Positions 40,198 through 40,997 of a stretch of DNA of 64,000 nucleotides are shown in pieces. The notes under the pieces are model-generated. The model saw only the letters and a list, made by a program, of their open reading frames with translations. It had not been told where the DNA came from and did no database searches. The DNA is from Haloferax marinisediminis. Lineage in GTDB: Archaea > Halobacteriota > Halobacteria > Halobacteriales > Haloferacaceae. Position numbers and translations under genes: made by a program. Location of the stretch: contig NZ_WKJP01000001.1 of NCBI RefSeq assembly GCF_009674585.1, positions 310,001 through 374,000 of the forward strand. The letters run 5' to 3'. Within the stretch, counting starts at the first letter, position 1. The number at the start of each line of letters is the position of its first letter.

Positions 40198-40320
40198 CGT
40201 GTGGTTGTCGTGACACAACCGGGCATTGTGGGTGTATCGGTCCGCGGCACGGCGTGGTGTACACCGGCACTGTACCGCAAGACGAGCGAAGCGAGTCCTT
40301 GCGGCTCTTCTTTGGTCCAG

Positions 40321-40437
40321 CTTTCTTCCGGGGGTTTGAGGCGACGGCTCTGCCGTCGCCGATGTCGTTTGAGACGCCTTTGGCGTCTCGTGATGCCAAA
40401 AACGCTCCGCGTTTTTGAGCAACCCCCGAAAAGAAAG
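40321..40437. repeat. 117-bp multibranched inverted-repeat element
   Basis: An outer near-perfect stem (CTTTCTTCCGGGGGTT at 40321-40336 with AACCCCCGAAAAGAAAG at 40421-40437) encloses three perfect 8-bp hairpins in a row: GGCGACGG/CCGTCGCC (40340-40360), GAGACGCC/GGCGTCTC (40371-40389) and AAAAACGC/GCGTTTTT (40398-40416). A further imperfect hairpin lies at 40275-40304. The element starts nine bases after the carS stop codon. Confidence 0.85.
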
Positions 40438-40445
40438 GTGGAGGT

Positions 40446-40997
40446 TTACCAGGGCTCGTTCTTCAACCCGAGCAGATACGCCCCCACGTTCGTGACGACG
40501 TGGAGAATCGGCGTCATCACGAGGACGACGACGAGCACGGGGAGCGTGAACGTCGCGGTGAACCACGCGGGCGCGGCGACGAACGCGAAGACGAGCGCAC
40601 CGACGACGAAGTCGAGTTGGTCGAGGCCGGGGAAGGCCGCACCGCGTTCGCGACCCGACCGACGCTTCAGGAACGAGGCACCGATGTCACCGAGCATCGC
40701 ACCGAGTGCGAGACCGAACCCGGCGGCGAGGGGGAACGTGGGAAGGTCGAATCCGACGATGCTGGAGAGGGTCGGTCCGACGGCGTTGAGAACGAGCGCG
40801 AGAAGCGTCCCGGCGAGTGTCCCGGCGGCGGTTCCGCGCCACGTCTTTCCGTCGCCGAGGATACGCCGTCCGCCCCACGACCGGCCACCGTCGATGGGGC
40901 GGCCACCACCAGCGAGAACGGCGGCGTTGTTCGGGACGTACGCAGGTAACATCGCCCAGAAAGCAGTGACGACGAGAGCGGCGAGAGAGACGGCCAT
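40446..40997 (-). CDS. carS: CDP-archaeol synthase
   Basis: A 183-residue membrane enzyme that transfers CMP from CTP to unsaturated archaetidic acid in archaeal phospholipid synthesis. The first helix and loop carry [34 protein letters not shown], the CarS signature, and [34 protein letters not shown] holds the conserved acidic and basic residues. Four to five membrane helices. It is monocistronic and followed by a large hairpin element. Confidence 0.94.

Follow-up and report, generated by a model that had tools for sequence, protein, structure and literature searches.

A haloarchaeal family of gene-end elements with T-runs around a variable palindrome, and its branched copy after carS in Haloferax marinisediminis

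The multibranched inverted repeat that follows carS in the window (the whole 64,000-nt stretch of Haloferax marinisediminis DNA analysed here) belongs to a family of elements, hitherto without a name, that occurs at gene ends in haloarchaea. The family members share a layout of CCACCTTTTT, a variable palindrome and AAAAA-n-CTGGACC-AAAAA, usually followed by a GC hairpin. Judging from the sequences of the copies, we suggest with a probability of about 0.55 that the family could be a two-way terminator module that also spreads and accretes hairpins. A conserved palindromic module of this kind, placing T-runs on both strands right at gene ends across a whole archaeal class, would offer haloarchaeal genetics a defined part for terminating transcription. 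The family and the repeated gene ends that accompany it appear undescribed in the literature searched, most subscription journals being outside it; the first-pass annotation of the sequence knew of no named haloarchaeal element with such a shape.

The family unit at this site occupies positions 40275–40441 on the minus strand and starts 4 nt past the carS stop codon. The first-pass annotation had delimited it as 40275–40437, which is correct at 40275 and 4 nt short at the other end. Read on the minus strand from 40441 to 40275, the unit consists of CCACCTTTCTTTTC-GGGGG, three perfect hairpins, CCCCC-GGAAGAAAGCTGG, the linker ACC, an AAAGAAG run and an imperfect 30-nt hairpin. The gene and the parts of the element are as follows.

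40446–40997, minus strand: carS, encoding CDP-archaeol synthase (NCBIfam NF003114, E 4.7e-66), the gene preceding the element.
40428–40441, minus strand: left end CCACCTTTCTTTTC, with a T-run just past the carS stop codon and the proposed carS termination site; the left end of the family, CCACC plus T-run, is invariant.
40420–40431, minus strand: inner part of the left arm of the outer stem (CGGGGGTT).
40365–40421, minus strand: 57-bp insertion with two hairpins, missing from the corresponding position in the sister species G013 and G005, with which it was compared directly.
40397–40417, unstranded: hairpin a, 9 bp with a 3-nt loop.
40371–40389, unstranded: hairpin b, 8 bp with a 3-nt loop; a compensatory C-G to G-C change is found in G026.
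40340–40360, unstranded: hairpin c, 9 bp with a 3-nt loop, the ancestral inner hairpin, present in G013 and G005.
40316–40338, minus strand: right arm of the outer stem, CAAACCCCCGGAAGAAAGCTGGA.
40303–40320, minus strand: conserved linker CTGGACC and outer A-run (CCAAAGAAG), which on the plus strand reads as a second T-run.
40275–40304, unstranded: flanking imperfect hairpin (CCGCAAGGACTCGCTTCGCTCGTCTTGCGG), also found beside many family copies.

The three consecutive perfect hairpins described in the first-pass annotation are borne out, with arms of 9, 8 and 9 bp, and the fourth, imperfect hairpin was located beside them. The enclosing stem, for which 16–17 bp had been given, has about 17 pairs in the minimum-energy fold; it is imperfect, with 40316–40338 pairing to 40420–40442 at 78% over 23 bp. 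The structure in the window is real and more than chance. As RNA, it folds with a z-score of −6.5 on the plus strand and −6.1 on the minus strand, and none of 200 shuffles was as stable on either strand; as DNA, the z-score is −6.5, again with 0 of 200 shuffles equally stable. The first-pass annotation had pictured a cloverleaf-like form as RNA or a complex cruciform as DNA. Perfect hairpins with 8-bp arms are 3–6 times commoner in the window than after block shuffling, and no other three of them were found side by side in the window.

Further copies were identified by pattern searches, on which all genome-wide counts are based. The right-end probe AAnCTGGACCAAA has 2–12 matches in 13 of the 14 Haloferax genomes (6 in the window genome), against 0–1 matches per Haloferax genome for its reversed control. 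The two-ended pattern CCAnCTTT...AAAnnTGGAnCAAA was found at well over 100 places in 31 of the 59 relatives, and its reversed control gave one match. Among the matches listed for AAAAAnCTGGACCAAAAA in GTDB genomes are members of Haloferax, Halobellus, Halorientalis, Halorhabdus, Natrinema, Natrialba, Haloarcula, Halococcus, Halorussus, Halarchaeum and others, and in these matches CCACCTTTT nearly always lies on the left. The copies in relatives rule out a unique curiosity of the window strain. The ends of the element are invariant (27 invariant columns across 32 diverse copies, which were partly chosen by those ends), and the interiors vary, the simplest being a 15-nt hairpin and the largest branched structures 120–130 nt long. 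Most interiors fold better than shuffles, with a median z-score of −2.4 and 56 of 100 copies below −2. The outer stem covaries: CCACC usually faces CTGG with one mismatch, CCAGC faces GCTGG, and in other genera CCACC faces GGTGG or TGTGG. RNAalifold predicted zero pairs on a MAFFT alignment of the 32 copies, because interiors of variable length were misaligned; this outcome was given no weight in either direction. Since other copies exist, stems compensate (both the outer stem and stem b), and presence and site of the copies differ between genomes, the lone and freely decaying structure that the first-pass annotation had considered as the counter-case was not what was found.

The copies lie at gene ends. 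By a simple ORF heuristic for gene orientation, the neighbouring genes converge at 25 of the 48 copies with both neighbours assigned, point the same way at 20 and diverge at three. The stop codon of a gene ending just left of a copy is typically 1–4 nt before CCACC, other copies directly adjoin tRNA-Pro, and both orientations relative to the abutted gene occur. Copies at gene ends carry a T-run on each strand, and therefore each strand has a T-run just past a gene end. At carS, whose orthologs are present in 57 of the 59 relatives, the T-run TTTCTTTTC, interrupted by a C, lies 9 nt past the stop codon. The first-pass annotation had given a distance of nine bases from carS to the element, which by the limits above starts closer to the gene. 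Because this run comes before the hairpins on the carS strand, the hairpins are probably mostly outside the carS mRNA, and their earlier assignment to its 3' UTR is doubtful. Beyond the element, a small membrane-like ORF and pyrE have the same direction as carS, and no convergent gene uses the second T-run at this site. The element follows carS in nine of 15 Haloferax species, and it is dispensable there since the other six have none or only a remnant. The carS genes of G020, G021 and G027 (other genera, one of them from another family) are also followed by a copy, and that of G038 by a similar structure.

Termination in archaea is usually described as a bare T-run. The intergenic termination motif of H. 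volcanii is a T-stretch, and a T5C insert ended 95% of transcripts in this organism in vivo (PMC7237163). The element resembles this signal in the T-run shortly past the gene stop codon; the known signal is a T-run only, whereas here paired T-runs on both strands surround a palindrome with invariant CCACC and CTGGACC (compare PMC7237163). In contrast to the intrinsic terminators of bacterial type, in which a hairpin is followed by a U-run, the T-run of the element precedes the hairpins on the carS strand. By analogy with the known Haloferax terminator, the carS transcript would be released at TTTCTTTTC, and transcripts from the other side would stop at the runs around CTGGACC. RNA polymerase coming from either side would meet a T-run because the palindrome has one at each end. 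The stem and hairpins beyond the T-run could form in read-through RNA or in extruded DNA and back up termination, or they may be merely tolerated. The etfA loci of Haloferax, which were collected by protein and not by motif, bear on the relative roles of these parts: five species lack the far arm, and with it the palindrome, and have the gene-proximal TTTTTGGTCCAGATTTTTG intact right after the gene; one species has nothing. On this evidence, the palindrome seems to be less important than the T-runs. In each of these settings the T-run lies ahead of the hairpins, which are thus more likely to fall beyond the mature mRNA than within its 3' UTR. A T-run alone would account for termination but not for the invariant CTGGACC and CCACC.

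In addition to its proposed role in termination, the element can disperse, and its interior gains hairpins, as it did here with a 57-bp double hairpin. In the sister species G013 and G005, the element at the matching carS site contains hairpin c as its only inner hairpin. Relative to it, the window copy is longer by 57 bases (40421–40365); these hold hairpins a and b and are a recent insertion in the window lineage into a one-hairpin ancestor, which gave the cloverleaf. By this comparison the three-hairpin form is not the defining shape of the family. The two-hairpin unit of a and b, with linkers ATCACGAGACG and CGTCTCnAACGACATC, was found once in G026, which belongs to another family, inside an element copy behind a different gene, a short ORF resembling prefoldin beta; the compensatory change in stem b listed above is in this unit. 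A separate double-hairpin module of ~52 bp was observed inside the CTG/TGGACC linker of the element at four loci, L005/L026 (carS of G010), L009, and L284 and L285 (etfA of G000 and G010), where one hairpin repeat is nested in another.

The family can disperse, because one relative (G018) has four near-identical copies, with 91–98% identity, of a 171-bp unit made up of the element and a long flanking hairpin; the copies are sharply bounded and lie at unrelated sites (L317–L320). These copies point to recent dispersal. A possible, if somewhat unlikely, explanation of the whole family is a small mobile repeat that would be mobilised in trans and have no host function; its T-runs would be incidental, and its copies would accumulate at gene ends since insertion at other places harms the host. 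The G018 copies, the differing presence of the element among Haloferax species at carS and etfA, and the position of about half of the copies beside repeated gene ends are consistent with it, as are the nested hairpin insertions, which resemble mobile repeats of Haloquadratum (PMC3119063). On the other hand, the carS and tRNA-Pro copies occur in more than one genus with their ends kept, gene-proximal T-runs outlast the palindrome, and copies are few per genome (2–12 in Haloferax) and few on plasmids. No family end and no transposase relative were found at 30 TnpB/IS605-type loci (98 kb) of eight genomes. Descent from an IS605-type parent as a PATE was rejected, as no parent is present near these 30 loci.

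PATEs and SMRs are the closest described elements, and neither definition fits fully. PATEs, the palindrome-associated transposable elements of Haloquadratum, are derived from IS605-type transposons and are likewise short, non-coding and dispersed, with palindromes near their ends and nested repeats (PMC3119063). Unlike the family, whose ends are near-inverted repeats with CCA(C)CTTTTT facing AAAAAn(C)TGG in almost every copy, PATEs do not have inverted end repeats, and their IS605 origin contrasts with the 30 IS605 loci examined here, none of which carries the ends of the element. SMRs, the small mobile repeats of Haloquadratum, whose means of moving is unknown, are ~80–110 bp long with inverted terminal repeats unrelated to known transposons, and have no target duplication (PMC3119063). 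Inverted ends are present here too, the relation to transposons being compared with the IS605 type only; no target duplication is visible at the four G018 copies, and of the 102 copies tested, 57 have repeats beside them, mostly gene ends. SMRs differ little from copy to copy and have other mobile elements of a single species as their targets, whereas the family has diverse interiors, with only the G018 set nearly identical, and occurs class-wide at gene ends. The REP/BIME elements of enterobacteria are also dispersed intergenic palindromes, often at gene 3' ends, but they differ in sequence, domain and end structure. We know of no REP feature that corresponds to the repeated gene ends.

The repeats beside the element were found by an automatic test in the 102 copies with a clear left end; a few of the 57 positive cases are weak (e.g. 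L042). Typically, the gene end is present twice: a damaged version (A, ~30 bp to >100 bp) directly adjoins CCACC on its left side, and the intact one (B) lies to the right. Examples are etfA, thiolase and ornithine carbamoyltransferase, named from reading the sequence. In most cases, and at many genes with no relation to one another, A is longer by 1–2 bases at a point exactly 3 nt ahead of CCACC. The A/B arrangement was seen at L071, L073, L103, L137, L214, L215 and others, and at the etfA loci L282–L295, often as tandem units; several loci have two or more units ~100 bp apart. No copy of the carS tail is present beside the window element. Tandem duplication of the gene tail together with the element was rejected as the sole origin of the repeats, as it leaves the constant left edge unaccounted for. 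In-frame TGA codons at two etfA loci were also set aside, being upstream of the true start. Copy A of etfA in G012 and G013 has a common derived change near the junction, and elsewhere the G013 copy agrees with its own gene; this fits an old event, after which gene conversion may have kept the repeats similar. Recombination between the repeats would leave behind half-elements.

We speculate, while considering it rather unlikely, that the element could couple termination with remodelling of gene ends: a triplex-capable palindrome with mirror-symmetric purine runs would, wherever it enters, repeat the adjacent gene end (~30 to >100 bp) and leave a scar of 1–2 nt at 3 nt from the left end, and the repeat would be kept alike by gene conversion and occasionally deleted to give a half-element. 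The repetition of gene ends, together with an identical small scar at many genes that are not related, points to an undescribed DNA process amenable to testing in Haloferax volcanii. In G025, the sequence in front of the element repeats the 3' ends of adjacent tRNA genes in fold-back form, both inverted and direct (L324, L326, L327).

An element acting at the DNA level would be a cruciform, a triplex (H-DNA) or a protein-binding site with an effect on topology, replication or recombination, and the two A-runs around CTGGACC would be triplex mirror halves. The lengths of the T-run, the inner A-run and the outer A-run change together (rho 0.81, 0.64 and 0.69; n=101), although they may be linked through shared ancestry, and the motif used to gather the sequences included part of the runs. 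The carS copies of three Haloferax species, the window copy among them, and one G020 copy have a C or G interrupting all three runs, which read TTTCTT, AAGAAA and AAAGAA; the outer purine run is the mirror, not the copy, of the inner run across CTGGACC (40303–40336 in the window, minus strand, and L006). The AAGAAA/AAAGAA arrangement has the symmetry expected of a triplex, as read from few loci whose sequences were partly collected by motif; the interrupted form comes from two loci only. The invariance of CTGGACC, not needed for a terminator, and the repeated gene ends, which suggest provoked recombination, would also agree with a DNA-level role, which we nevertheless regard as improbable.

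Least probable of all is a structured RNA, either a stabiliser in the 3' UTR of carS mRNA or a small RNA: the fold is very stable and stem b shows a compensatory change, but the fold energy fails to separate RNA from DNA, sister species differ in the number and sequence of inner hairpins, and Rfam has no match within the element even at E 5. A known RNA family was rejected, with no Rfam match above the gathering score; the best one, sR39 (11.5 bits against a gathering score of 50), is outside the element. Of the roles raised in the first-pass annotation, the terminator and the mobile repeat gain support, and the RNA stabiliser does not, because the inner hairpins are constant neither in number nor in sequence and lie beyond the T-run on the carS strand, and copies occur in both orientations to genes.

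Plasmid-borne and virus-borne origins were considered and rejected: haloarchaeal plasmids gave three matches, and the 30 viral contigs that contain the 18-mer include no GC-rich one and just a single one with a left end. Inverted pairs of elements ~300 bp apart, enclosing no obvious gene, were seen in three genera (L312, L313, L314). Outside haloarchaea, a short version of the form CCACCTTTTT-hairpin-AAAAAGCTGGACCAAAAA was observed in a viral contig (L254, GC 0.44) and in a Woesearchaeota contig (L133, GC 0.46), in the latter apparently directly after a tRNA.
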